Positions 2,825-31,447 of a stretch of DNA of 64,000 nucleotides are shown here, piece by piece. The DNA is from Acidovorax sp. A79 (GTDB lineage: Bacteria; Pseudomonadota; Gammaproteobacteria; Burkholderiales; Burkholderiaceae_C): positions 1,811,001 through 1,875,000 of the forward strand of contig NZ_AP028672.1 of NCBI RefSeq assembly GCF_041154505.1, written 5' to 3'. The position numbers and the translations under genes were made by a program. The notes under the pieces are model-generated. The model did not search any database. It worked only from the letters and a program-made list of their open reading frames with translations, and was not told the origin of the DNA. How positions within the stretch are numbered: position 1 is the stretch's first letter; each line of letters starts with the position of its first letter.

Positions 2825-3115
2825 CAGAGGCACCTTGAAAAATGGAATGGATCAGGCTGGCGCCCCGCCCCGTGAATGCCGACACTGCATGCAAACGAGA
2901 AAGAGGGAGGGAAGCCATGGGAGAGAAAAAGCACACCACCACGCGGCCGCACAAAGCGCCGCGCACCTGCACGCGCGCGGCACACCATGTGTGTGGGGTA
3001 AGGAGGCTCCCCGGCAGCGCGGCCTGGGGCGTGGTGGGTGCAAAAGGGTGGACGCCCGCAGACGTGGCAGCACAATGGAGTTCTCACACAACCACTTGCC
3101 ACGAGAGGGGCGCCC

Positions 3116-3406
3116 ATGAAAACAGAGAAGGACATAGCCGACATCAAGGCTTTCTGCGAGCGACTGCGCGCAGACCTGTCCGCAACCAATTCAGCGCTGT
3201 TTGCACTGTTCGCATCAGTCCCCGGCGTGTACCGGGACCGCGTGCTGGAACAGCTAGCAAAGCGCTCCGTGCAGCGAAGCGAATACGCCGAGAAATTAAA
3301 AGACCCAGCGGTAGAGCAAGCGCTAGAGCAGATGGAGGCAGCAGACCAGCGGGTGTACAAAGAACTGCAGCGGGTGAACGCGGAGCGTCATGCAGAGGGC
3401 CTGTAG
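3116..3406 (+). CDS. Hypothetical helical protein, 96 aa
   Basis: The frame begins at ATG 3116 with a strong ribosome binding site (GAGAGGGGC) directly upstream. The product is acidic/basic and almost wholly helical (KTEKDIADIKAFCERLRADL at the start, then KLKDPAVEQALEQMEAADQ), with no signal peptide or membrane segment. It lies on the strand opposite to the flanking cro and cII genes, as lysogeny-expressed accessory genes often do. I do not recognise a family. The codon pattern and RBS make it more likely than the overlapping minus-strand frame. Confidence 0.65.
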   Translation: MKTEKDIADIKAFCERLRADLSATNSALFALFASVPGVYRDRVLEQLAKRSVQRSEYAEKLKDPAVEQALEQMEAADQRVYKELQRVNAERHAEGL

Positions 3407-3501
3407 CCGCAGGCTCCTGGTTCGGCCATTTGAAATACATCAGCTGTTCCAGCTCGTACCGCCGAAATTCTGAGTACGCCACCAAAGCCTGTGCATCGCC
3501 G

Positions 3502-3726: not shown

Positions 3727-3736
3727 GCCCTGATTT

Positions 3737-3788
3737 AAACATGGCGTTTAATAAAAATCAAATCACCATGTTTAACAACACCATGTTT
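3737..3788. promoter_or_regulatory. Three operator copies between cro and cI
   Basis: Three 13-mers share one consensus. AAACATGGCGTTT is at 3737-3749, AATCACCATGTTT at 3761-3773 and CAACACCATGTTT at 3776-3788. The last two are the reverse complement of the first type (AAACATGGTGTTT). The sites sit between the divergent Cro-like and CI-like genes. Two more copies precede the DGR operon at 5383 and 5407. Repressor binding is inferred. Confidence 0.75.
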
Positions 3789-3809
3789 AGTGCAAGAACA
3801 ATCGCAGGC

Positions 3810-4244
3810 ATGGCAGAAATCCACCCAACTACCGAAAGGCTGTACTCAGCGGCACGTGAGTTGCGGGACGTGATTGGGCAGTCGGCAGTGGCTCGCCTGC
3901 TCGATATATCGCCGCAAGTTATGAAGAACTGGGAAGCTCGGGGCGTGTCCGAAGGCGGCGCTCTCAAGGCCCAAAAGTACATCGGGTGCGATGCAAACTG
4001 GGTGCTTCACGGCGAACAACAGATGGCGTCTACCGCCTGGGCGCCCCCATCTCCCGGGCATTCGACTCAGGACAAGGCGGCCACGTACCAAGTGGCGAAG
4101 ACTTGGCCTTTCAACACCTTTACACCCGACGAATACTTCAAGCTGCTGGATGCCGAATACCGGCAAAAGATCGAAGACCAGTTGCTGGGCGCTATCACCC
4201 GCATGAAGCAAGCCACACAACCCCAACTTGACAAACACGCCTAA
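3810..4244 (+). CDS. CI-like phage repressor
   Basis: This 144-residue protein has an N-terminal helix-turn-helix (LRDVIGQSAVARLLDISPQ, then VMKNWEARGVS) and the phrase IGCDANWVLHGE that typically ends CI-type DNA-binding domains. No LexA-like peptidase domain follows. The C-terminus is short and helical and could mediate oligomerisation. In-frame ATGs at 3741, 3768 and 3783 lie inside the operator cluster, so I chose ATG 3810. Divergent orientation to the Cro-like gene and recurrence of the operator at 5383-5419 support a master repressor role. Confidence 0.75.
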   Translation: MAEIHPTTERLYSAARELRDVIGQSAVARLLDISPQVMKNWEARGVSEGGALKAQKYIGCDANWVLHGEQQMASTAWAPPSPGHSTQDKAATYQVAKTWPFNTFTPDEYFKLLDAEYRQKIEDQLLGAITRMKQATQPQLDKHA

Positions 4245-5370: not shown

Positions 5371-5382
5371 GCGCATCGTTTT

Positions 5383-5419
5383 AAACATGGTGTTTGACTT
5401 TCGAATAAACATCATGTTT
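5383..5419 (+). promoter_or_regulatory. Paired operators upstream of the DGR operon
   Basis: AAACATGGTGTTT at 5383-5395 and AAACATCATGTTT at 5407-5419 are near-perfect inverted repeats. They match the sites in the cI/cro promoter region. They lie 35-70 bases upstream of the first DGR target gene, where a leftward-early (PL-like) promoter is expected. Control by the CI-like repressor is inferred. Confidence 0.75.
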
Positions 5420-5453
5420 AAATTCGCCCACGTTTCAACAAACGAGGGCAGCA

Positions 5454-6185
5454 ATGCAATCCCACCCATCCCCCAGTGCACACGCGTGCACACCCCATCT
5501 GCCTGACGGCGCCCGCCACGCAGGCACCGTCCTCGACGAGGCAGGCCAACCGCAGCACCGGCTCATCCTGCTGGCCGCGCGCCCCGACAAGCGCATGAAC
5601 TGGCAAGACGCCAAGGCCTGGGCCACCAGCGTGGGCGGCGACCTGCCCAGCCCGCAAGAGCAAGCCCTGCTCTTCGCCAACTGCCGCGATGCGCTGCCCA
5701 AGGCTTGGTGCTGGTCGAACAAGACGCACGAGCAAGACGCCTCCTACGCCTGGTGTTGCGCCTTCTACGACGGCCACCAGGACTACGGCCACAAGAGCTA
5801 CGAGGGCTCGGCTGTTGCCGTCCGCAGATTACCCCTTGAGTCCTTCAGTTCTTCTGACGACACCAGTGCACACGTGTGCACAGCGCCCGCCGCGCCATCC
5901 GCCGAAGTCACCAAGGCCATCGCGGCACTGCGCAAGCGCCTGCACCGCTGGGAGCTGGAGCACCTGCGCAAGCACGCCGCCGAACTGGCCGACAAGCTGG
6001 AGCTGGCTCAAGAGCGCATCGAAGGCCTGGAATCCGAAGTAAGCCGAGCATGGGACACCGCGGAGAGCTGGCGTATGGACGCGATGGACCTTGTCAACGA
6101 CCTGCAGGAAGCGGGCAAGGAAGTGGGGCTGACCATGGGCGGCGCCCTGGTCGTGATGGAACCTGATGACGGGGTGCCCTTCTGA
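5454..6185 (+). CDS. DGR target protein 1 with C-terminal coiled coil
   Basis: This 243-residue protein has a short C-type-lectin/DUF1566-like fold at about residues 20-130 (WQDAKAWATSVGGDLPSPQE, then KAWCWSNKTHE). It ends in the variable segment SYAWCCAFYDGHQDYG encoded by VR1 (5738-5829). Unlike the other two targets, the frame continues past the lectin domain. A Ser/Pro/Ala linker is followed by about 90 residues of predicted coiled coil (LADKLELAQERIEGLESEVS). There is no signal peptide. It is the first gene of the operon behind the operator pair. Its ligand is unknown; diversification of the binding surface by the DGR is inferred from the template comparison. Confidence 0.88.
   Translation: MQSHPSPSAHACTPHLPDGARHAGTVLDEAGQPQHRLILLAARPDKRMNWQDAKAWATSVGGDLPSPQEQALLFANCRDALPKAWCWSNKTHEQDASYAWCCAFYDGHQDYGHKSYEGSAVAVRRLPLESFSSSDDTSAHVCTAPAAPSAEVTKAIAALRKRLHRWELEHLRKHAAELADKLELAQERIEGLESEVSRAWDTAESWRMDAMDLVNDLQEAGKEVGLTMGGALVVMEPDDGVPF
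5738..5829 (+). repeat. DGR variable repeat VR1
   Basis: This 92-bp stretch aligns without gaps to the template repeat at 9202-9293. I count 11 differences, all at template adenines, within the block of AAY codons. The 3' half, from AAGAGCTACGAGG onward, is identical to the template. Confidence 0.93.
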
Positions 6186-6286
6186 TGGCCGCGCACCGCA
6201 TCTACACCGCCCTGCGCCGCGTGCTGGGCCCCTGCAACGCCTACCGCATCGCGCGCGCGCTGGCAGCGCCGGGAGCCCGCCCATGA
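6185..6286 (+). CDS. Small basic protein, 33 aa
   Basis: ATG 6185 overlaps the stop of the first DGR target (TGATG), and its own TGA overlaps the next ATG (ATGA at 6283). The basic 33-residue product (MAAHRIYTALRRVLGPCNAY) has no recognisable domain. The tight overlaps on both sides are the main evidence that it is translated. Confidence 0.55.
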   Translation: MAAHRIYTALRRVLGPCNAYRIARALAAPGARP

Positions 6287-6432
6287 GCGCCCCCATCCAG
6301 CTCATCCGTCTGCGCAATCGCCGCACCCGGCACCAGGGCCTGCGCATCGCAGCACGCATCGGCATGGGCGCCCTGTGCGCCGCCGTGTTCCTCACGGTCT
6401 TCGCCTGGGTGTACCTGCACCTGCCCCGCTAG
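6283..6432 (+). CDS. Small single-pass membrane protein
   Basis: This 49-residue product has a basic N-terminus (RLRNRRTRHQG) and one hydrophobic segment (MGALCAAVFLTVFAWVYL) near the C-terminus. It is therefore likely an inner-membrane protein with its N-terminus inside. It overlaps the preceding 33-aa gene by four bases. The function is unknown; small membrane proteins of phage left operons are often superinfection or accessory factors. Confidence 0.6.
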   Translation: MSAPIQLIRLRNRRTRHQGLRIAARIGMGALCAAVFLTVFAWVYLHLPR

Positions 6433-6444
6433 CCAAGGCCCGCC

Positions 6445-6765
6445 ATGCCCACCACCAGCACCTTCACGCTGCACATCCGGGGCCAGGTCACCAGCAGCGT
6501 CTGTCGCTACACCCGCCACGGCGTGCCCGTGGTGGAGCTGGAAATTGCAGACAAAGCCAGCGGCCAAACCGTGTGCATCACCCACCACTACCCCGACCGG
6601 GGCAGCGCCAGCTGCATGGCAGCGCGCTCCCTTGCCGCCCGCATGCGCGGCCAGCTGGCCGACCTGCAGGCCATCAACCCCAAGTTCAAAGCCAAGCGCC
6701 TGGAGTGCGAGGCCGACCTGATCAACCCCAACCCCACAGGCGCGACACGCGCAGACCTCGAATGA
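6445..6765 (+). CDS. Hypothetical protein, 106 aa
   Basis: The product begins with a beta-rich region (FTLHIRGQVTSSVCRYTRHG, then VVELEIADKASGQTVC) resembling a small OB-type or single-strand DNA-binding barrel. This resemblance is weak and not a firm assignment. The stop overlaps the following kinase start (ATGA at 6762). It sits in the DGR operon among nucleotide-metabolism genes. Confidence 0.65.
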   Translation: MPTTSTFTLHIRGQVTSSVCRYTRHGVPVVELEIADKASGQTVCITHHYPDRGSASCMAARSLAARMRGQLADLQAINPKFKAKRLECEADLINPNPTGATRADLE

Positions 6766-7442
6766 GCCACCACACCCACGTCATCGGCCTCACAGGCCCA
6801 GCAGGCAGCGGCAAAGATACCGTTGCAGACCTGCTCACCACCCACTGCGGCGCCCACAAGCTCGCGTTTGCAGATGCCCTGCGCGGGGAGATTGTCGAAG
6901 CCTTCTGCATCGAGCACATCTACCTCACCCGGCGCGAGACCAAGGAGCACCCGCTCAGCGCCCTGGCGCTCGCCCGCTGCCTGGATACCGCATTTGTCGG
7001 CCGCATGCTCATCCAGCACCAGCTGTTCAACGACAGCCAGCTCGACATGGATGCGCCCCGAAGCCCGCGCCAGATCATGCAATGGTGGGGCACCGAATAC
7101 CGCCGCGCAGCCCAGCCCGGCTACTGGGTCAGCAAGGCCGCGCAGCACATCCGCTGGCGCCACCAGGCCATGCGCGACCGGCTGATCGTTATCACGGACG
7201 TGCGCTTTGAAGACGAAGCCAATTTGGTGCGCGCCTTGGGCGGCCAGATCTGGCAGATCAAGCGCCCAGGCTGCGATGTGGGCGCCGCCGCACACGTCAG
7301 CGAGGTGACGGGCGAGGCATTCACACCCAACCTGGTCATTAACAACAGCCACGACATGCGCCACCTGCAGCAGCTCGTGCTGGGTGGCTGGGCGGCAAAG
7401 GAATGGGGCGTGCCAGGTGTGCGCGTTGAGGTGCCAGCATGA
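6762..7442 (+). CDS. Deoxynucleoside monophosphate kinase
   Basis: This 226-residue P-loop kinase has Walker A GPAGSGKDT at residues 10-18. It also has the phrases RQIMQWWGTEYRR and VITDVRFEDEANLV typical of phage dNMP kinases of the T4 gene 1 type. It phosphorylates dNMPs to dNDPs to feed phage DNA synthesis. It is coupled by four-base overlaps to the genes on both sides and is part of the leftward early operon. The family assignment is firm; the substrate range is not visible. Confidence 0.85.
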   Translation: MSHHTHVIGLTGPAGSGKDTVADLLTTHCGAHKLAFADALRGEIVEAFCIEHIYLTRRETKEHPLSALALARCLDTAFVGRMLIQHQLFNDSQLDMDAPRSPRQIMQWWGTEYRRAAQPGYWVSKAAQHIRWRHQAMRDRLIVITDVRFEDEANLVRALGGQIWQIKRPGCDVGAAAHVSEVTGEAFTPNLVINNSHDMRHLQQLVLGGWAAKEWGVPGVRVEVPA

Positions 7443-7810
7443 GCCGCGCCCGCACCACCCGTGGCACCGACAGCATCACGCTGGCCAAGCCCAACGAAAC
7501 CAGCGTGCACATCCTGCGCCGCAAGCCCGAGCCACTGCGCCAAGCAGGCTTGCACGACATCGCCACCACCAACGTCTCGGGCAGCGGCAAGGTGCTGATC
7601 AGCCCGGTGCCCAGCCAGGCAGAGCTGCAGGCCCGCCGCAAGAGCGAACGCCTGGAGGCCGCCACCACCTGTACCCCCGTGCGCAACAGCACCATGCGCG
7701 GCCCTGCCTACACCTGCCCCGAGCTGCGCAGCAACCCCCACCGCCCAGGCAGCACAGACGCGCTGCGCCTGCCCAGCCTTTCCAGTTTCCCCAACCCCTC
7801 CAAACGATAG
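7439..7810 (+). CDS. Hypothetical protein, 123 aa
   Basis: The gene begins in an ATGA overlap with the kinase gene. The product is polar and rich in Arg, Pro and Thr, with little predicted structure (ISPVPSQAELQARRKSERLE), and lacks a signal peptide. It ends 11 bases before the second DGR target. I do not recognise a family. Confidence 0.55.
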   Translation: MSRARTTRGTDSITLAKPNETSVHILRRKPEPLRQAGLHDIATTNVSGSGKVLISPVPSQAELQARRKSERLEAATTCTPVRNSTMRGPAYTCPELRSNPHRPGSTDALRLPSLSSFPNPSKR

Positions 7811-7821
7811 GAGTGCTTCCC

Positions 7822-8205
7822 ATGTCCCTTTCCACCATTCGCTTTGCCGACCTGCCCGCCATGGGCCAACCCCTGGAGGGCGGCACCTTCGCAGGCATCA
7901 CCACCCATGCAGACGGCAAGCACTACGCAGAGGTCCTGCTGTCCGACCAGGGCAGCGACCTCAACCACCAGCAGGCCGTGGACTGGGCTGCAGGCCTGGG
8001 CGCCGCCCTGCCCACCCGCCCCATTGCCGCCCTGCTGTTCGCCAACGTGAAGGCCCTGCTGCGCCCCGGCTGGCACTGGCTGCAGGAGACCGAAGGCGCC
8101 TCCTACGCCTGGTATTGCTACTTCGGCAACGGCACCCAGCTCGACGACCACAAGAGCTACGAGGGCTCGGCTGTTGCCGTCCGCAGCATTCCCCTGAGTG
8201 CTTGA
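7822..8205 (+). CDS. DGR target protein 2
   Basis: This 127-residue protein is preceded by AGGAG ten bases upstream of ATG 7822. The N-terminal part (FADLPAMGQPLEGG, then SDLNHQQAVDWAAGLGAALP) diverges from the other targets. The C-terminal lectin-like end (WHWLQETEGASYAWYCYF) is shared. The variable segment YCYFGNGTQLDDH is encoded by VR2, and the protein stops eight codons after the constant AVAVRS motif. Together with target 3 it shows a minimal stand-alone lectin-type variable protein, with no tail-fibre or membrane-anchor domain. Confidence 0.87.
   Translation: MSLSTIRFADLPAMGQPLEGGTFAGITTHADGKHYAEVLLSDQGSDLNHQQAVDWAAGLGAALPTRPIAALLFANVKALLRPGWHWLQETEGASYAWYCYFGNGTQLDDHKSYEGSAVAVRSIPLSA
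8097..8187 (+). repeat. DGR variable repeat VR2
   Basis: This sequence aligns without gaps to the template. Nine adenine positions differ in the variable block, and one more differs at the 3' edge (AGA to AGC). No non-adenine differences occur inside the repeat. Confidence 0.92.
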
Positions 8206-8238
8206 GTCCTTCGGTCCTTTTTTCTTTTTGAGTCAACC

Positions 8239-8631
8239 ATGAACACAACCACCAACACCCACATCCAGCTGGCCGCAATCGCCATCGAACTGGCACCAAG
8301 CGAACGCTACTCCGGCACGGTGCTGGACGAAACCGGCCTCGTACTGCACCACCTCAGCCTGCTGCCAGCGCGCCCCGATGTGCGCAAGAACTGGGACGAC
8401 GCCAAGGCCTGGGCCACCAGCGTGGGCGGCGACCTGCCCAGCCCGCAAGAGCAGGCCTTGCTCTTCGCCAACTGCCGCGATGCGCTGCCCAAGGCCTGGT
8501 GCTGGTCGAACAAGACGCACGAGCAAGACGCCTCCTACGCCTGGGATTGCTACTTCAACTACGGCGACCAGGGCTACGGCCTCAAGAGCTACGAGGGCTC
8601 GGCTGTTGCCGTCCGCAGATTGATTCCTTAA
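8239..8631 (+). CDS. DGR target protein 3
   Basis: This 130-residue lectin-like protein is close to target 1 without its coiled-coil tail. Residues 54-96 are encoded by DNA almost identical to target 1 (three mismatches in 131 bases). The first 50 residues differ more. VR3 encodes SYAWDCYFNYGDQGYGL, and the protein ends just after AVAVRR. It lies 33 bases after target 2 and directly before avd, the position expected of the principal DGR target. No signal peptide is visible. Confidence 0.88.
   Translation: MNTTTNTHIQLAAIAIELAPSERYSGTVLDETGLVLHHLSLLPARPDVRKNWDDAKAWATSVGGDLPSPQEQALLFANCRDALPKAWCWSNKTHEQDASYAWDCYFNYGDQGYGLKSYEGSAVAVRRLIP
8529..8620 (+). repeat. DGR variable repeat VR3
   Basis: This 92-bp stretch is collinear with the template repeat. 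Ten differences occur, all at template adenines, including a CAC to CTC change that is not seen in VR1 or VR2. Confidence 0.93.
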
Positions 8632-8664
8632 ATCCTTCAACCCTTTGATTTGAGCCACCCACCC

Positions 8665-9027
8665 ATGGCCTTGCACACCAAATTGCCCATCTACCGCACA
8701 GGCCTGCAGCTGCTGGAGCTGGCCCACCGCGTGCAAGAGCAGATGCCGCGCGGCATGAAGCGCACCGTCGGCGAGAAGATCGCCCAGCACTGCACCGACA
8801 TCCTGGAGTTGATGGCGCTCGCCAATGCATCCCAGGACACGCGGGCGCACTACCTGCGCGAGCTGCTCAAGCACCAGCGCACGGTAGAGGTACTGTTGCG
8901 CGTCAGCTTTGATGCGCAACGCGTCTCGCCCAAGCTCTGGGCGCAGTCGGTGCAGATCCTGGGCAGCATCGGCGCGCAGGCCGGTGGGTGGCTCAAGACA
9001 GCCAAGAACAGGGCGCCAGCAGTATGA
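8665..9027 (+). CDS. avd: DGR accessory variability determinant (Avd)
   Basis: This 120-residue helical protein has the length, charge and phrases of Avd four-helix-bundle proteins (LPIYRTGLQLLELAHRVQE, GMKRTVGEKIAQHCTDILEL, SPKLWAQSVQILGSIGAQAG). In characterised DGRs, Avd forms a basic pentamer that binds the reverse transcriptase and the template RNA and is required for mutagenic homing. It lies between target 3 and the template repeat, the canonical order. Its TGA overlaps an ATG of the reverse-transcriptase frame (ATGA at 9024). An upstream TTG at 8650 is less likely as the start. Confidence 0.9.
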   Translation: MALHTKLPIYRTGLQLLELAHRVQEQMPRGMKRTVGEKIAQHCTDILELMALANASQDTRAHYLRELLKHQRTVEVLLRVSFDAQRVSPKLWAQSVQILGSIGAQAGGWLKTAKNRAPAV

Positions 9028-9314
9028 CGGTCAAGGCCCTCATGCCCGTGCGCACAGTGAATCTGGTCGCGCCGCTGGGCCACAAGCCCACCGACAGGCA
9101 CACCACGGATACGGCCGCGCCAGCGCGCGGTGCGTCCGGTGCAGCCACCCCGCTGATCGGCCACGGCCTTCGGCAGAGTGGCCTACATAGCGCGACGGTT
9201 GCGCCTCCTACGCCTGGAATTGCAACTTCAACAACGGCAACCAGAACAACAACCACAAGAGCTACGAGGGCTCGGCTGTTGCCGTCCGCAGATCCGCACC
9301 TGTTCGGCCTGCTG
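9000..9314 (+). ncRNA. Probable DGR template RNA region
   Basis: In the best-studied DGR the functional RNA runs from the 3' end of avd through TR and a spacer into the start of the reverse-transcriptase gene. The equivalent stretch here is about 9000-9314. The limits are inferred by analogy only; no promoter or processing site is visible. Confidence 0.4.
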
Positions 9315-10403
9315 GTGCAGGCCTGGCTTGATTGCCGCCGCCACAAGCGCAACAGCGCCAGCGCGCAGGCCTTCGAGGCCCAGGCCGAGCACAACCTGCT
9401 GCAGCTGCACGACGAACTGGCCAGCGGCACCTGGCAGCCAGGCCGCTCCATTTGCTTCGTCATCACCCGGCCCAAACCGCGTGAGGTGTGGGCCGCACGA
9501 TTTGATGACCGCATCGTGCACCACCTGCTCTACAACCACATCGCCCCGCGCTTCCATGCCCGTTTCACCGCCGATAGCTGCGCCTGCATCCCCGGCCGTG
9601 GCACGGCTTATGGGGCGCGCAGGCTAGAGGGGCAGGTGCGCAGCGCTACAGCCAATTGGAGCCGCCGCGCCTACTACCTCAAGTGCGACCTGGCCAACTT
9701 CTTCGTGAGCATCGACAAGGCCGTGCTGCTGGCCCAGCTGAAGCGCCAGGTACACGAGCCCTGGTGGATGTCGCTGGCCGAGGTCATCCTGATGCACGAC
9801 CCGCGCGGCAACGTAGAGGTGCACGGCACCGCCCGCGAACTGGCCCGGGTGCCTGCGTACAAGAGCCTGTTCAACGCGCCTGCAGACCATGGCCTGCCCA
9901 TTGGCAATTTAAGCAGTCAGTTCTTTGCCAACGTGCTGCTCGATGACCTGGACCAGTTCGCAAAGCACCGCCTGCGCGCACCGCACTACGTGCGCTATGT
10001 CGATGACTTCATTCTGTTGCACGAAAGCCCGCAGTGGCTCAACGCAGCGCACGCAGCCATCAGCGACAAGCTGGCCGGCCTGCACCTGGCCATGAACCCG
10101 CGCAAGACCATCCTGCAGCCCGCAGAGCGCGGCATTGACTTCGTGGGCCACGTCATCAAACCCTGGCGCCGCACCACCCGCCCGCGCACCCTGGCCACGG
10201 CACTGCAGCGCATCGAGCACATGGACCCCGCCGACACCTATGCGGCAGGCAACAGCTACCTGGGCCTGGTGCGCCAAGCCACCCACAGCCACAAAGAACG
10301 CGCCGCCCTCTGCCGCGCCCTGCTCAAGCGCGGGCATGCGGTCGAAGGCCTCCACCTCACCCAAGCATTTCGCAACAAGAAGGGAGCCAGCCATGGCAAC
10401 TGA
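9024..10403 (+). CDS. DGR reverse transcriptase
   Basis: The conserved reverse-transcriptase domains lie downstream of TR. They are CDLANFFVSID (motif with the first catalytic Asp), LPIGNLSSQFFANVLLDDLD (with the GxxxSQ signature of DGR enzymes instead of the QGxxxSP of group II introns), the active-site box YVDD at 9996-10007, and HLAMNPRKTILQPAERGIDF. No endonuclease or maturase domain follows. The enzyme copies the template RNA with adenine-specific errors, and the cDNA replaces VR. ATG 9024, in an ATGA overlap with avd, gives 459 residues but reads through TR in another frame. GTG 9315 gives 362 residues, nearer the usual size, and is a serious alternative start. Confidence 0.92.
   Translation: MTVKALMPVRTVNLVAPLGHKPTDRHTTDTAAPARGASGAATPLIGHGLRQSGLHSATVAPPTPGIATSTTATRTTTTRATRARLLPSADPHLFGLLVQAWLDCRRHKRNSASAQAFEAQAEHNLLQLHDELASGTWQPGRSICFVITRPKPREVWAARFDDRIVHHLLYNHIAPRFHARFTADSCACIPGRGTAYGARRLEGQVRSATANWSRRAYYLKCDLANFFVSIDKAVLLAQLKRQVHEPWWMSLAEVILMHDPRGNVEVHGTARELARVPAYKSLFNAPADHGLPIGNLSSQFFANVLLDDLDQFAKHRLRAPHYVRYVDDFILLHESPQWLNAAHAAISDKLAGLHLAMNPRKTILQPAERGIDFVGHVIKPWRRTTRPRTLATALQRIEHMDPADTYAAGNSYLGLVRQATHSHKERAALCRALLKRGHAVEGLHLTQAFRNKKGASHGN
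9202..9293 (+). repeat. DGR template repeat (TR)
   Basis: Read in the target-gene frame, this 92-bp repeat would encode SYAWNCNFNNGNQNNNHKS, with adenine-rich AAC/AAT codons wherever the targets vary. All substitutions between TR and the three VRs fall on template adenines, and the 3' constant end is identical. That asymmetry identifies this copy as the template. It lies between avd and the reverse-transcriptase core. Confidence 0.95.
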
Positions 10404-15386: not shown

Positions 15387-15646
15387 GCCTACTTGCTCAG
15401 ATGGTGCTGATTGAAAAGTACGGCCTGCGCGTGGACCTGGAACGCTTGGCCGAGATCCTGGAGACCACCCCGCCCAACATCCGACGCAAGATCAGCGAAG
15501 CTACTTTCGAGATCCCGACGTACGTGGACGGCGGCAAGCGATGGGCCGATATCAGGGACGTGGCGGACTATCTGGATCAACGGCGCCAACAGGCCCGCCA
15601 GGCCCATGGTGCAGGTCTTCAGGCCGCAGCTGCGCATAGCGCTTGA
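15383..15646 (+). CDS. Small HTH/excisionase-like protein
   Basis: This 87-residue protein begins in an ATGA overlap and has an HTH-like arrangement (LERLAEILETTPPNIRRKIS, then IRDVADYLDQRRQ). It is the last gene of the operon, next to the integrase, the position where recombination directionality factors occur. Its last 95 bases overlap the 3' end of the integrase on the other strand. An excisionase role is inferred from position and size. Confidence 0.6.
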   Translation: MSLLAQMVLIEKYGLRVDLERLAEILETTPPNIRRKISEATFEIPTYVDGGKRWADIRDVADYLDQRRQQARQAHGAGLQAAAAHSA

Positions 15647-16625
15647 GGTTGTTCCAGCTTTTATGACCACTCACCAGCGCCACGCGCGGTATGTCGAAGC
15701 CCTGTTCAAACAGGCGCGATATGCCCTCGTGCCGCAGGTCATGAAAATGCAAATCAGGGATGGCCAGCGCCACGCACGCATCCCGAAAATACTTGCTAAG
15801 TGTCTGCTCGTGAACAGGGAAGATGCGCACTTCATCCTCCACCCTGGACTGGGCCTGGATCAATTCCCATGAACCGTTGAGCAGCGGCACCCACTGATCG
15901 TTGCCAGCCTTCTTGCGCGGGTCTTTGCGATCACGCACCAGCACCAGCTTCTTACCCTCGTCCAGGTCACCCCAAAGCAGCCGGACAACCTCACCCCGCC
16001 GCATGGCCGTGGCCACCGCAAAGCGCACCACGTCGGCGTACACCTGCCCCCTGTTCGCCTGCAACCACTCAACTACCCGCACCAGTTCATCCTCTGTGGG
16101 CCGACGCTCCCGCTTGCCGCCACCCCCTATCAAGTGCATGTGTGTGAGCAGCGGCCTGGCCTGGCCAACCACGTCGGGCAGATTGACCTTCAGGTGCACA
16201 CCAGCCAGGCGCATGACGGTGCCCAGCTTCGAGATATCCATATTGATCGTGTAGACGCCGGCACCATCTTCGTCCTTGCGCCCCTCGGCATAGGCCACCA
16301 GGTCAGCGGGCGTCAGCCGCGCCGCATCGAGCTGCCCCAGGCGCCGCGATAGAGTCTTGAGCATGTAGTGCTCGTTGGATGTGTCGGCAATCGGCCGCGA
16401 CTTTTCACGCAGCTTGCGGTAGGTATCTATCAGGTCCGACACCAGCACCACCCGACCCAACACAGTCTTGGGTGCCAGAACCTGGCCACGGTCAATGTCC
16501 GACTCGATACCCCGTGCCCAGGCCTGCGCCTGCGCCTTGGTGGTGAAGGTCTGACAGTATGATGGGTGCCCCTTGCGCCTGATCAGCGCACGCCACTTGC
16601 CGCCTACTTGAATGATGCTTGCCAT
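15552..16625 (-). CDS. int: Tyrosine recombinase, prophage integrase
   Basis: This 357-residue integrase has an N-terminal arm/SAM-like domain (YCQTFTTKAQAQAWARGIES) and a catalytic domain. Its active-site residues appear in order: Arg in ATAMRRGEVVRLLWGD, the HxxR motif in HDLRHEGISRL, His/Trp in GHKSWNNL and the nucleophile Tyr in KRYAQL. It would catalyse integration and excision of the left-hand element. It is transcribed toward the DGR operon, 110 bases upstream of tRNA-Arg. Direct and inverted GTGATAC repeats precede it. Its attachment site is not identified. Confidence 0.9.
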   Translation of the reverse strand: MASIIQVGGKWRALIRRKGHPSYCQTFTTKAQAQAWARGIESDIDRGQVLAPKTVLGRVVLVSDLIDTYRKLREKSRPIADTSNEHYMLKTLSRRLGQLDAARLTPADLVAYAEGRKDEDGAGVYTINMDISKLGTVMRLAGVHLKVNLPDVVGQARPLLTHMHLIGGGGKRERRPTEDELVRVVEWLQANRGQVYADVVRFAVATAMRRGEVVRLLWGDLDEGKKLVLVRDRKDPRKKAGNDQWVPLLNGSWELIQAQSRVEDEVRIFPVHEQTLSKYFRDACVALAIPDLHFHDLRHEGISRLFEQGFDIPRVALVSGHKSWNNLKRYAQLRPEDLHHGPGGPVGAVDPDSPPRP

Positions 16626-16735: not shown

Positions 16736-16810
16736 CTCCTCGTAGTTCAATGGATAGAACGAGTGCCTCCTAAGCGCTAGATACAGGTTCGATTCCTGTC
16801 GAGGGGACCA
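16736..16810 (+). tRNA. tRNA-Arg (anticodon CCU)
   Basis: The cloverleaf can be drawn. Acceptor CTCCTCG pairs with CGAGGGG, the D arm is GTTC/GAAC, and the anticodon loop contains CCT in GTGCCTCCTAAGCG. The T arm ACAGGTTCGATTCCTGT is followed by discriminator A and an encoded CCA. It resembles bacterial tRNA-Arg(CCU), a frequent integration hotspot. Integrases lie on both sides of it. Confidence 0.93.
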
Positions 16811-16851: not shown

Positions 16852-17023
16852 ATTTTCCCTTTGAAAACAGCATCTTAGCCGTCCATGGCAGTCCAAGGCA
16901 ATCCACAGCCATCTGCGCAACCTGGGGGCACATCTGGGGGCATCGTTCGCCAGAATGGGGGCACATTTATAGATGCCGGTGCCCCCAGGAAGATGCCCCC
17001 ACCAGCAGCGCATTGAGAAAAAA

Positions 17024-17277
17024 CACTTGCTCGCGCTTGGACGGTCGGCAAACCCCTCAAAGCCTACAAACCCCACCAGTCAGCCCCGGCGTGCAGGCTG
17101 CAAAACCGGGCCGCAGCCCTTTTCACTTGCTCGCGCTTCGACGGTCGGTAAACCCTCCAAAGCCTACAAACCCCACCAACCCGCACAGCCTGCAGGTCTG
17201 CGAATCGGCCCGCTGCTTTTTTCACTTGCTCGCGTTTCGTCGGAAAAAAACCCTTCAAAACCCACCAAACCCTACCA
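17024..17277 (+). repeat. Three direct repeats, about 100-bp period
   Basis: A 55-bp unit beginning CACTTGCTCGCG and ending ACAAACCCCACCA (diverged in the third copy) starts at 17024, 17124 and 17223. The spacers are also related. The same unit occurs in inverse orientation at 29353-29717, at the other end of the satellite. The 16852-17356 stretch holds no gene I can support; it also has TGGGGGCAC motifs at 16923, 16935 and 16956. Confidence 0.85.
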
Positions 17278-17356
17278 AGCGCCTCCAGTCGGATGGCACA
17301 CTGATACTGTGTTTAATCACAGTTTTCTGGCGCTAGCCAGGGGCTGCACGGTATCC

Positions 17357-18574
17357 ATGCCCAAACGAATCCTCGAAAAAACCTCTCTGGAAGTCTCCCG
17401 CCTGCGCAGTGACGGCTCCTACGCCGTTGGCGGCGTGTCGGGTCTGTATCTCAAGATCGAAGGCGGCTCGCGCGCCTGGGTGCTGCGCTATGTGCACAGT
17501 GGCCACCGCCGCCGCATGGGCCTGGGCAGCTATCCGCTGGTCGGCCTGGCTGAAGCCCGCGAGGCTGCCCGCAACGCCCTCAAACTGCGCCTGGGCGGTG
17601 TTGACCCGCTGCAGGCTCGGCAGGCCCAGCGCGAAGCGGCCCGGCTGGCCATGGCGCGGCAGGTGCGCTTTGATGACGCGGCCGAAGCGTTCATTACCGA
17701 ACACGAAGGCACATGGCGCAGCCTCAAGCATGCGAAGCAATGGCGCAGCACCCTGGCCACCTATGCATTCCCCCACATCGGGCACCTGCAGGTGGCAGAC
17801 ATTGGGCAGGCCCACGTGCTGCAGGTGCTGGCACCTATCTGGAAGACCAAAACAGAAACGGCCTCACGGCTGCGCGGCCGCATCGAGCAGGTATTGGACT
17901 GGGCCACGGCCCATGGCCACCGCACCGGCCCCAACCCTGCCCGATGGCGCAGCCAGCTCGAACACATCCTGGCGGACCCGAACAAGCTGGCGCCGGTCAA
18001 ACACCACGCGGCCGTGCCTGTGGCCATGCTGCCGGGCACCTACCAGCGGCTGCTGGTCATGGACGGGCAAAGCGCCCGCGCGCTGCGCTTTCTCATCCTC
18101 ACGGCCGCACGCTCGGGCGAGGTGCGGGGCATGGTCTGGAGCGAGGTCGATCTGGAGGCCGGTCTGTGGACGGTGCCCGCCGAACGGATGAAGTCCAACA
18201 GGGAACACCGCGTGCCCCTGTCGCGCCAAGCGCTGGAACTGCTCAGGGCACAGCCACGCATCCCTTCGGTCGAGCATGTGTTCCCGTCCAACCGCAAAGG
18301 CCCGCTGTCCGATATGGCCCTGACGGCCTTGATGCGGCGGCACGGACTGGCAGCGGTGCCCCATGGCTTTCGCTCAACCTTCAGGGACTGGGCCGGGGAG
18401 ATGACGCACCACGCGCGCGATGCCGTGGAGCTTTGTCTGGCTCACGCGATAGACACCCGGACCGAAGCCGCCTACCGGCGCGGGGACATGCTGGAAAAGC
18501 GGGTGGCCATCATGCAGGACTGGGCGGACTACGTTGTTTCGGGGGATGGCCCGCAAGCGGAGGTGGCCCCATGA
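17357..18574 (+). CDS. int: P4-type integrase of the satellite
   Basis: This 405-residue tyrosine recombinase has the P4/DUF4102 N-terminal domain (GGVSGLYLKIEGGSRAWVLR, then RRMGLGSYPLVGLAEAREAA). Its catalytic domain contains LTAARSGEVRGMVWSE (Arg), HGFRSTFRDWAGE (HxxR) and AYRRGDMLEKR with the C-terminal Tyr. It reads away from tRNA-Arg, which fits integration at the tRNA. ATG 17357 was chosen because the family begins near this point. Its stop overlaps the Ogr-like gene (ATGA). Confidence 0.9.
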   Translation: MPKRILEKTSLEVSRLRSDGSYAVGGVSGLYLKIEGGSRAWVLRYVHSGHRRRMGLGSYPLVGLAEAREAARNALKLRLGGVDPLQARQAQREAARLAMARQVRFDDAAEAFITEHEGTWRSLKHAKQWRSTLATYAFPHIGHLQVADIGQAHVLQVLAPIWKTKTETASRLRGRIEQVLDWATAHGHRTGPNPARWRSQLEHILADPNKLAPVKHHAAVPVAMLPGTYQRLLVMDGQSARALRFLILTAARSGEVRGMVWSEVDLEAGLWTVPAERMKSNREHRVPLSRQALELLRAQPRIPSVEHVFPSNRKGPLSDMALTALMRRHGLAAVPHGFRSTFRDWAGEMTHHARDAVELCLAHAIDTRTEAAYRRGDMLEKRVAIMQDWADYVVSGDGPQAEVAP

Positions 18575-25105: not shown

Positions 25106-25636
25106 TTACCCCTCCAGGCTCAAGGCCACGTCCAGGCCGCGCAGTGCGGCCAGGGCCTGCATCACCTTGCGGCGTGCGCGGGCGGCGTCCACGTGCGGTT
25201 GGCGCAGGTGGTGCAGCGCAGTGCCCAGCGCGTTGTGCGCGGTGGCGTGCAGCTGGATGGGGTCGGGGGTGCCCGTGTTGGGCGATGAAGCGGGCGAGAT
25301 GGTGCTCGCGACAAGTGCGCGTGCGGGGATACGGTCAGCCATGTTGGCCTCCAGAAGGTGCAGTTTGCAAAAACTGCCACCCTCGACGCCAATCAGGGGC
25401 GGCAGCTCGAACAGGTTGGCGTACCGGGCACCTCCTGCGAGAACCGGCGAGCCTTGCGGCTCCCTGTCCGAGCCGCCAAAAAATGGGGCACGAACGAACA
25501 AGCCGCAGGGACTCTGCGGGAGTAACTGCGGCTTGCGTCGCAGAAAGTGCATCGGGACGCCAATCCCGATCACGCCTTTTTTTGACGTGACAGCGCAGTG
25601 TAGCGTGCGAGGGGGCTGTGGGACAAGGGCTTGCAT
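25106..25636 (-). CDS. Ash-family-like P4 satellite ORF
   Basis: The frame from ATG 25636 contains the Ash-like phrase KKGVIGIGVP, then an Arg/Pro-rich section and EGGSFCKLHLLEANMADRIP. This is the loose pattern of Ash-family ORFs that overlap the RNA-based immunity region of P4-like elements. The last 78 residues (from ATG 25342) look like an ordinary helical protein and could be the only translated part. The upstream half may instead be non-coding regulatory RNA. The assignment is tentative. Confidence 0.5.
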   Translation of the reverse strand: MQALVPQPPRTLHCAVTSKKGVIGIGVPMHFLRRKPQLLPQSPCGLFVRAPFFGGSDREPQGSPVLAGGARYANLFELPPLIGVEGGSFCKLHLLEANMADRIPARALVASTISPASSPNTGTPDPIQLHATAHNALGTALHHLRQPHVDAARARRKVMQALAALRGLDVALSLEG

Positions 25637-30203: not shown

Positions 30204-31385
30204 TCAGCCCTTGCGGGCGCCTGCGGCGTGCAGGTAGTCAGCCCACCACTGCATCAGCTTCGTGCGGTCGGCCATGTACGTGGTGCGGTGGTATGCGGCC
30301 CGTATCTCGTTGCGCTCCTTGTGCGCGAGCTGCCGCTCTATCACGTCGGGGTTCCATCCGTGTTCGTTGGCCACGGTCGAGAACAGGGCGCGGAAGCCAT
30401 GGGCCGTGGCCATGGTCTTGTAGCCCATGCGGGCCAGGGCTGAATTGAAGGTGTTCTCGCTCAGTGGCTTGCTGGGGTAGTAGGGACTGGGGAACACCAG
30501 CTCGCGGCCGCCGCTGATGGCGTCGATCTTGTCCAGCACTTCGAGGGCCTGCTGGGACAGGGGCACGCGGTGTTCCTCGCGCATCTTCATGCGTTCGGCC
30601 GGGATGGTCCACAGCGCTGCCTTGAGGTCGAATTCAGCCCAGCGCGCGCCCCGCACTTCGCCCGGCCTGCATGCAGTGAGCATCAGCAGCCGCAGGCCCA
30701 GCACGATGGCGGGCGCGCCCTCATAGGCGGCGAGCCTTCGCATGAACTCGGGCAGCTCTTTCTCGGACAACGCGGCGCGGTGCTGCACAGTGCGCGGCTT
30801 GAGGATTTCAGAGGGCACCAGATCGAGCATGGGGTTGCTGTCGATGCGCTGGTGTGTGACGGCCCAGCGGTAGATGGCCTTCACCCGCTGCAGCACGCGG
30901 CCGGCCTGGTCGGCCGCACCGCGCGCCTCGATGGCCTTTACTGCCTCCATTACGTCGCGCGCCTTCAACGTGGCCATGGGCCTTGAACCCAGCGCCGGAA
31001 AAATGTCGTTCTCCAGCGATGCCTGAATGCGGCCCATCGTCACGGGCTCCCAGCGGCCGCGCTGGTGCTCCAGCCAGTCGCGGGCCACCACCTCCAGCGT
31101 GTTGCGGCTTTCGTGGATGACCCGCGCCTTTTCCTCCTTGCGGGCTTCGCCTGGGTCTTGGTTATCTTGCAGCAGGCGGCGGGCCTTGGTGGCCGCTTCA
31201 CGTGCTGCCTTCAATGTCACGTCCGGGTAGACGCCGAAGGCGAGGCGCTTTTCCTTCCCGGCGAAACGGTACTTCATGCGCCAGTAGCGCCCGCCCGCCT
31301 TGGTGACTTCAAGATAGAGGCCCAGGCCGTCTGAATGTTTGCCGGGCTCGGTGAGGGTGCGTAGCTTCGTGTCGGTGAGTTTCAA
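30204..31385 (-). CDS. int: P4-type integrase of a third element
   Basis: This tyrosine recombinase of about 393 residues has a DUF4102 N-terminus (KHSDGLGLYLEVTKAGGRYW; RLAFGVYPDVTLKAAREAA) and catalytic motifs LTACRPGEVRGARWAE (Arg) and HGFRALFSTVANEHG (HxxR). These are followed by QLAHKERNEIRAAYHRTTYM with the nucleophile Tyr. I favour TTG 31385 (KLTDTKLRTL); a GTG at 31433 would add 16 residues from a region of TGGGGGCAC repeats that may be integrase sites. A decayed close relative lies at 32137-33235. Confidence 0.88.
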   Translation of the reverse strand: MKLTDTKLRTLTEPGKHSDGLGLYLEVTKAGGRYWRMKYRFAGKEKRLAFGVYPDVTLKAAREAATKARRLLQDNQDPGEARKEEKARVIHESRNTLEVVARDWLEHQRGRWEPVTMGRIQASLENDIFPALGSRPMATLKARDVMEAVKAIEARGAADQAGRVLQRVKAIYRWAVTHQRIDSNPMLDLVPSEILKPRTVQHRAALSEKELPEFMRRLAAYEGAPAIVLGLRLLMLTACRPGEVRGARWAEFDLKAALWTIPAERMKMREEHRVPLSQQALEVLDKIDAISGGRELVFPSPYYPSKPLSENTFNSALARMGYKTMATAHGFRALFSTVANEHGWNPDVIERQLAHKERNEIRAAYHRTTYMADRTKLMQWWADYLHAAGARKG

Positions 31386-31447
31386 GGGGCACCAGAAATG
31401 GCAGGGGGCACAAGTGGGGGCACATTCTGTCACCTCACAGCATGAAT

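Follow-up and report, generated by a model that had tools for sequence, protein, structure and literature searches.

How does a diversity-generating retroelement (DGR) supply its reverse transcriptase (RT) when the template that this enzyme copies lies within the enzyme's own open reading frame (ORF)? This question is raised by a DGR at positions 5454 to 10403 of a stretch of 64,000 nucleotides (nt) from Acidovorax sp. A79 (contig NZ_AP028672.1, positions 1,811,001 to 1,875,000), referred to here as the window. That the element is an authentic DGR of the known kind is close to certain. We read it, with a probability of about 0.75, as a prophage DGR whose single template repeat (TR) matches three variable repeats (VRs), and whose TR is predicted to be clamped by an RNA of the RT-15 type, lies in the RT frame and is likely translated. 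An earlier interpretation made from the letters alone (the sequence-only reading) had recognized the adenine-only VRs, the accessory gene avd and a DGR-type RT, all of which stand, and had overlooked the RT-15 RNA, its predicted clamp helix and the course of the RT frame through the TR.

One template and three variable repeats

The repeats and the two genes that serve them are as follows.

9202..9293, plus strand: TR, 92 nt, placed by alignment to the VRs
5738..5829, plus strand: VR1, 11 substitutions, all at TR adenines
8097..8187, plus strand: VR2, 9 internal substitutions, all at TR adenines, and an edge change A>C at 8187
8529..8620, plus strand: VR3, 10 substitutions, all at TR adenines
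8665..9027, plus strand: avd, accessory protein; ORF open from TTG 8650, with ATG 8665 and stop TGA 9025-9027; phrog_3206
9024..10403, plus strand: RT frame, 459 amino acids; its ATG overlaps the avd stop (ATGA), and the conserved RT core begins at about 9312

The sequence-only reading had proposed this TR with three VRs in three genes, carrying 11, 9 and 10 substitutions that all fall at template adenines. Both claims held when the TR and VRs were aligned and the differences tabulated by template base, and a repeat search given no prior coordinates recovered the same four copies. In the ungapped alignment 30 of 30 internal substitutions across the three VRs lie at TR adenines (16 A>G, 10 A>T, 4 A>C), with no internal substitution at another base; adenine accounts for 26 of the 92 TR bases. 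At VR2 the nine mismatches lie within 8097-8186, and the single edge change claimed there (A>C at 8187, opposite TR 9292) is present, together with a T>A opposite TR 9293 that had not been listed; these last two aligned positions are unlike the TR because homology stops there. No fifth copy of the repeat was found in the strain's own genome (5.87 Mb, 2 contigs), so that the TR/VR sequence occupies four places only.

The two protein genes were assigned as the sequence-only reading had it. Avd matches phrog_3206 (E 3e-19), with PF22296 (32.9 bits) and NF033474 (39.1 bits) both below cut-off. The RT matches phrog_1423 at 364 bits; its closest solved structure is 8ub7 (1.4e-33), which matches the RT of phage BPP-1 over its full 328 residues, and the next is the group II RT 6ar1 (2.2e-9). 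The NCBIfam group II model scores 85 bits on the window RT, below its cut-off of 300. Profile and structure matches thus support an RT of the DGR type. A defence system was considered as well and rejected: the PADLOC matches of the RT reflect generic RT similarity, and avd and the targets match nothing.

For comparison we assembled 164 loci, namely the best 80 of 302 viral candidates and the best 80 of 87 genome candidates together with the window and three phages. Eleven were removed (6 without avd, 4 with a non-adjacent avd, 1 with a truncated RT), and the remaining 153 loci with an RT and adjacent avd were dereplicated at 97% RT identity to 129 representatives. Across these representatives 270 TR/VR pairs hold 3317 mismatches, of which 45 are not at A, a figure that is no independent test since the finder penalized non-A mismatches. 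A second substitution tally halts at non-A mismatches by construction and was not used as evidence of adenine bias.

Two close relatives speak to recent activity, which the sequence-only reading had also suggested. In L085, whose RT is 96% identical to that of the window, the TR differs from the window TR by one G>A, and this A is present in all 3 VRs found. In L086 (RT 81% identical) the TR carries a C>T and a G>A within the repeat, and both changes are present in both VRs found. The VRs of each relative thus follow their own TR, which points to repeated TR-to-VR copying after the lineages split. Such copying likely continued after divergence, and the sharing of these private markers supports a unidirectional transfer, which would run from TR to VR. 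The suggestion of recent activity is thereby supported beyond the evidence first offered for it, and the window DGR is probably active. That the element is instead a decayed remnant is most improbable: its RT, avd, RT-15 and target frames are intact, its VRs are unlike their own TR only at adenines, and in its kin the VRs track the TR. One VR of L086, at 1174-1265, in addition carries a T>G, a change opposite a TR base other than adenine.

The reading frame and the predicted RNA fold around the template

The RT frame of the window opens at ATG 9024-9026, overlapping the avd stop at 9025-9027, and continues without a stop through RT-15 and the TR. The sequence-only reading had started the RT at 9315, which is too far downstream: this GTG sits at the margin of the conserved core, and upstream of it no stop interrupts the frame as far back as ATG 9024. 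In 48 of the 129 representatives avd likewise ends in ATGA. None of these 48 has a stop in the RT frame between avd and the RT, and in 46 the ATG is in that frame; stops interrupt the other two sense frames in 46/48 and 48/48. Openness by itself was rejected as evidence, because one of the antisense frames has no stop either in 22/48 of these loci; we compared instead the parity of length changes with that in closed-frame relatives. Grouping loci by openness was rejected as circular, because frame-breaking changes leave the group.

Length changes were counted on the RT tree between the avd stop and an anchor about 25 nt inside the TR, placed alike in all groups and missing in 10 of the 129 representatives. 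The 44 anchored loci among the 48 with ATGA show at least 17 changes, of which 1 alters the length modulo 3. The 42 loci with an in-frame ATGA show 16 changes, none altering it, and when only the RT tree was used to delimit the window clade (51 rows, 46 of them anchored) 2 of 19 changes did so. In contrast, 18 of 23 changes alter the length modulo 3 in the closed-frame relatives with a homologous RNA (54 rows), and 22 of 29 do so in all closed-frame loci (61 rows). At most one frame-altering change among 17 has a probability of about 3e-10 at the control rate and about 3e-7 at the neutral two-thirds; these values are rough, as parsimony counts are minima. Genome scans yielded five new ATGA loci with an RT match, three of them open and in frame (L169, L170, L182), and a sixth ATGA locus (L173) with no RT match.

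The loci also differ in where the RT could otherwise begin. All 54 closed-frame loci have an in-frame ATG within or downstream of the TR, compared to 6/42 in-frame ATGA loci, and 11 of these 42 have no ATG, GTG or TTG at all from the TR start to RT residue 1. Closed-frame relatives such as L114 may begin the RT at an in-frame ATG (often ATGATG) within the TR, which may then double as the RT start region. The frame rule is strong in the window lineage and incomplete outside it. Judging from these sequence comparisons, the RT would be read through from the end of avd across RT-15 and the TR, making the TR part of the RT coding frame, with a probability of about three in four.

The RNA between avd and the TR, together with the TR end that it is predicted to pair with, contains the following elements.

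9011..9202, plus strand: RT-15 structured RNA (RF03018), 156.4 bits against a gathering threshold of 82; ends where the TR begins
9022..9045, plus strand: first hairpin of RT-15 (cmscan structure); its stem holds the predicted RT start AUG 9024-9026, paired with CAU 9041-9043
9057..9065, plus strand: 5' strand of the predicted clamp helix, within RT-15; covariation
9067..9072, plus strand: 5' strand of the RT-15 closing stem (cmscan structure), pairing with 9190-9195; covariation ranks 2 and 9
9190..9195, plus strand: 3' strand of the RT-15 closing stem (cmscan structure), the 5' clamp of the TR loop, by the position at which TR/VR homology starts
9289..9297, plus strand: 3' strand of the predicted clamp helix, overlapping the TR 3' end; covariation

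The predicted start codon lies in the first hairpin of RT-15. All 44 aligned ATGA sequences keep the pairs 9025-9042 and 9026-9041; at 9024-9043 they have A-U (37) or A-C (7). Of the 61 closed-frame sequences, 35 have C-G and 14 have T-T at 9024-9043, and at least 29 leave 9025-9042 unpaired. With the AUG paired in this hairpin, a ribosome ending avd would need to open the stem, and the predicted structure suggests that folding and translation exclude each other.

A consensus fold of 119 representatives, covering RT-15, the TR and the RT start, pairs the RT-15 motif UGAAUCUG, unpaired in the Rfam structure, with CAGAUUCA at the TR 3' end. In this helix the pair 9059-9295 ranks 4 of 73,365 column pairs by corrected mutual information, and ranks 1, 2, 3, 5, 6, 7, 9 and 10 are pairs of RT-15's own structure. 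Clamp strands could be extracted in 111 of the 129 representatives, and for 16 of the remaining 18 the helix was inspected by eye. In the 111 sequences the pair is GC in 87, AU in 13, UA in 8, GU in 1 and unpaired in 2, a paired fraction of 0.98 compared to 0.76 after shuffling. On the RT tree (108 rows) its state changed at least 9 times, with 8 changes of the 5' base and 7 of the 3' base. In rows outside the 111-sequence set, reading by eye showed two-sided clamp changes, GAAUCCG with CGGAUUC in L042, L105 and L146, GGG with CCC in L170, a further one in L149, and in L165, L166 and L180 C with G at this pair, each time beside a mismatch. The five core pairs hardly vary and carry little information, and one variable neighbour pair shows a modest excess (0.63 vs 0.48 shuffled).

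In the window G9066 alone separates the clamp helix from the RT-15 closing stem, and the TR is predicted to form a loop of about 93 nt held between the two. The limits of TR/VR homology were counted on the representatives, leaving aside 7/129 with no TR/VR pair and 12 with no CAGAU; 8 further pairs lay beyond the range that was counted. In 213/236 pairs (109 loci) homology stops 0-10 nt into CAGAU, and in 158/176 pairs whose closing-stem motif was located it starts 3-6 nt past that motif. These limits, near both clamps, would fit reverse transcription that starts at one clamp and stops at the other.

Weighing a proposed clamped and translated template

Several observations weigh against this reading. 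Codon-position diversity is coding-like from 9315 onward (0.18/0.22/0.40); it shows no codon-position bias in RT-15 (0.10/0.15/0.13 over the first 18 codons, 0.27/0.27/0.29 over the rest) or in the TR (0.21/0.24/0.21), and such flat values indicate a leader peptide without visible amino-acid selection. The frame rule has exceptions as well: L112 and L047 carry ATGA out of frame, and two of the five new loci with an RT match depart from it, L178 by a stop and L181 by being out of frame. The 51-row clade (Shimodaira-Hasegawa-like approximate likelihood ratio test, SH-aLRT, 86) includes 3 closed rows (L164, L014, L049) and 2 open rows with another avd end (L045, L025), and open loci without ATGA (14 anchored) do not follow the spacing rule, with 5 of 9 length changes altering the length modulo 3. 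In the window, TTG 9279 is a codon of the RT frame within the TR. As to the clamp, support for the helix rests largely on the one strongly covarying pair, 9059-9295; two variable neighbour pairs show no excess over shuffles (0.68 vs 0.69; 0.78 vs 0.80), the window has the mismatch A9060 x C9294, L038, L128 and L144 each break one core pair, and L156 and L164 have no good clamp (these five read by eye). With the frame kept and the peptide not, it is an unbroken ribosome path from avd to the RT that seems to be selected.

The absence of amino-acid selection in the leader is what an ordinary DGR would show if RT-15 and the TR were non-coding, the RT started at TTG 9279 or GTG 9315 and the open frame were incidental to high G+C. 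An in-frame ATG, GTG or TTG between the TR start and RT residue 1 is indeed available in 31/42 relatives, the annotated RT start of BPP-1 sits after the TR and spacer, and the stop-free antisense frame in 22/48 makes openness weak evidence. However, incidental openness would hardly account for the stops in the other two sense frames (46/48 and 48/48) or for 1 frame-altering change among at least 17 compared to 18 of 23 in closed-frame relatives, and 11/42 loci would have no candidate start; we regard this alternative as unlikely. A frame kept without conservation of its amino acids would also fit translation for its own sake, the leader being a separate, attenuator-like regulatory peptide whose translation only opens the RNA while the RT re-initiates downstream. 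Yet a separate peptide needs a stop, the RT frame has none between avd and the RT in 48/48 ATGA representatives, and re-initiation would not require the RT frame, which leaves this possibility very little room.

A different alternative concerns where complementary DNA (cDNA) synthesis is primed. The spacer that lies 3' of the TR in BPP-1 both recruits RT-Avd and primes the cDNA (PMC12875486), and an equivalent scaffold might be hidden in the RT codons of the window, leaving RT-15 with some other role. Third-position diversity past the TR (0.46, 0.33, 0.44 and 0.47 per 36 nt) is, however, no lower than in the next stretches (0.32-0.53), and it is RT-15 that covaries with the TR 3' end; we consider a hidden scaffold improbable, slightly more so than the non-coding leader.

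Under the clamped and translated template that we prefer, the transcript could serve as either message or template. A ribosome finishing avd would re-initiate at ATGA 9024-9027, opening the RT-15 hairpin, and would read RT-15 and the TR into the RT core, a read-through step suggested by the conservation of the frame. An untranslated transcript would fold, with the stem 9067-9072/9190-9195 and the helix 9057-9065/9289-9297 one nt apart and the TR as the loop, as predicted and backed by covariation. cDNA synthesis by RT-Avd would then run from the 3' clamp to the 5' clamp, as the ends of TR/VR homology suggest, and the adenine-mutated cDNA would replace the VRs; here the substitution pattern is observed and the mechanism is put forward by analogy to BPP-1. 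Supply of the RT would thus be coupled in cis to use of the template. To this fuller account, in which one RNA is both message and template, the fold silences RT synthesis, translation erases the fold and the clamps of the TR loop set where cDNA starts and stops, we give an even chance.

If the account is true, template and enzyme are inseparable in the window lineage, which bears on DGR regulation and on the building of DGR tools. It would give the RT-15 family a testable role as a 5' scaffold clamping the template, and it suggests a route to translation for an RT gene without an evident ribosome-binding site.

Targets, prophage setting and known systems

The three genes that carry the VRs lie upstream of avd.

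5454..6185, plus strand: target gene 1 (ORF), 243 amino acids, VR1 internal; PF07603 (Lcl_C) at 23.4 bits, below the curated 34.9
7822..8205, plus strand: target gene 2, 127 amino acids, from an ATG within the ORF, VR2 at the C-terminus; weak phrog_4245 match
8239..8631, plus strand: target gene 3, 130 amino acids, VR3 at the C-terminus; Lcl_C at 22 bits, below 34.9

When a C-type-lectin-like fold was looked for by profile, targets 1 and 3 matched Lcl_C weakly, both under the curated threshold, and target 2, whose start is corrected to 7822, had no Pfam match. Targets 1 and 3 have 300 nt in common at 87% identity (5509-5808 vs 8300-8599, the middle and 3' part of target 3), which suggests duplication of a DGR target inside the cassette. 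Target 1 extends about 110 residues beyond its VR, with weak coiled-coil-type Pfam matches, and targets 2 and 3 stop at the VR. In a stem-loop test of the 3' flanks of the three VRs the folding z-scores were -2.13, -0.43 and -1.36.

The DGR is located in a prophage, between lysogeny-control genes and an integrase.

15552..16625, minus strand: tyrosine integrase, adjoining tRNA-Arg 16736-16810

A CII-like gene (2303-2833) and a repressor-like gene (3741-4244) mark the lysogeny region, a deoxynucleotide monophosphate kinase is encoded at 6762-7442, and a ParB-like gene follows the RT. Among the part of the neighbouring proteins that was scanned no tail family was matched, and megablast gave no plasmid relatives. 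A 43-nt inverted repeat, 79% complementary (3733-3775 / 5381-5423), flanks the repressor-like region and perhaps represents operator or promoter elements. Just past tRNA-Arg, three tandem copies of a 91-nt sequence (16989-17278, 64-71% identical to the reference copy) lie where a second integrase ORF begins. Other integrases (16973-18574, 30204-31433) and a C4 antisense RNA match at 25395-25483 on the minus strand (RF01695, 61.5 bits) perhaps belong to a second mobile element beside the prophage.

Of what is described here, DGRs, RT-15 and TRs overlapping annotated RT ORFs are already known, and the clamp helix and the conservation of the frame are new. Among papers outside subscription, a literature search found no link of RT-15 or RF03018 to a DGR, or of a DGR to translational coupling or a leader peptide. 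As far as we found, the start, bounding and regulation of DGR cDNA synthesis are detailed only for BPP-1, with a scaffold 3' of the template (PMC12875486).

The BPP-1 DGR (mtd, avd, TR, brt; NC_005357) resembles that of the window in the order and orientation of avd, TR and RT and in its adenine-specific VRs (PMC12875486). The two RTs are 30% identical in an alignment of 301 positions that begins at residue 97 of the 459-residue frame, and the Avd proteins show no significant pairwise BLASTP similarity. In BPP-1 the TR directly follows avd and a 144-nt spacer precedes brt, whereas the window has about 175 nt of RNA between avd and the TR and only about 20 nt between the TR and the RT core; a structured spacer of the BPP-1 type 3' of the TR is not indicated in the window, where downstream third-position diversity is not reduced. 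The diversified target of BPP-1 is an annotated tail protein, while the three targets of the window lie in the early/lysogeny region.

The brt frame of BPP-1 (L177, minus strand; avd 3021-3407, brt 1756-2742) is also stop-free through the spacer, TR and avd, and, unlike the window, it has no ATG, GTG or TTG near the avd stop. No clear ribosome-binding site precedes brt according to PMC12875486, and brt may also be translated from upstream. Among the BPP-1 relatives (L189-L255) 38/56 loci are open, with a spacing of mostly 2 modulo 3 in a grouping that is biased; with a spacer anchor 23/56 of the clade could be scored, and 3 of 11 length changes alter the length modulo 3, which is suggestive only.

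Structural group 3 of DiGReF (PMC3521204) likewise has a TR that overlaps the annotated RT ORF; there the overlap was classed in 2012 with the RT and TR RNAs viewed as separate. For the window lineage the present data argue against separate RNAs, as conservation of the frame ties both to one message. The maturase ORF of group II introns lies inside the intron's own catalytic RNA, so that there too an RT is encoded in the RNA it binds, although the two RNAs are unrelated.

The closest comparisons are with RT-15 itself, a family that reportedly comes from a paper on 224 candidate RNAs and of which the window RNA is a member at 156.4 bits. The Rfam model stops at the TR start, so that the helix predicted to reach the TR 3' end is outside it and new here. 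Genomes with RT-15 above the cut-off numbered 6/200 in the family, 9/399 in the order and 1/369 in the class, the strain's own genome included each time. RT-15 is annotated just before an RT related to that of the window in Pseudomonas phage Cruim01, and in Burkholderia phage Magia a related cassette lies near the integrase, with a possible target annotated as a lectin fold. Closed-frame RT-15 DGRs, many of them from Pseudomonas genomes (for example L114), have homologous avd, RT-15, TR, RT and clamp helix; unlike in the window, their RT frame is closed between avd and the TR, and 54/54 carry an in-frame ATG within or downstream of the TR. Closed-frame and open-frame relatives of the same RNA thus offer a natural comparison, which shows a template kept in the RT frame.

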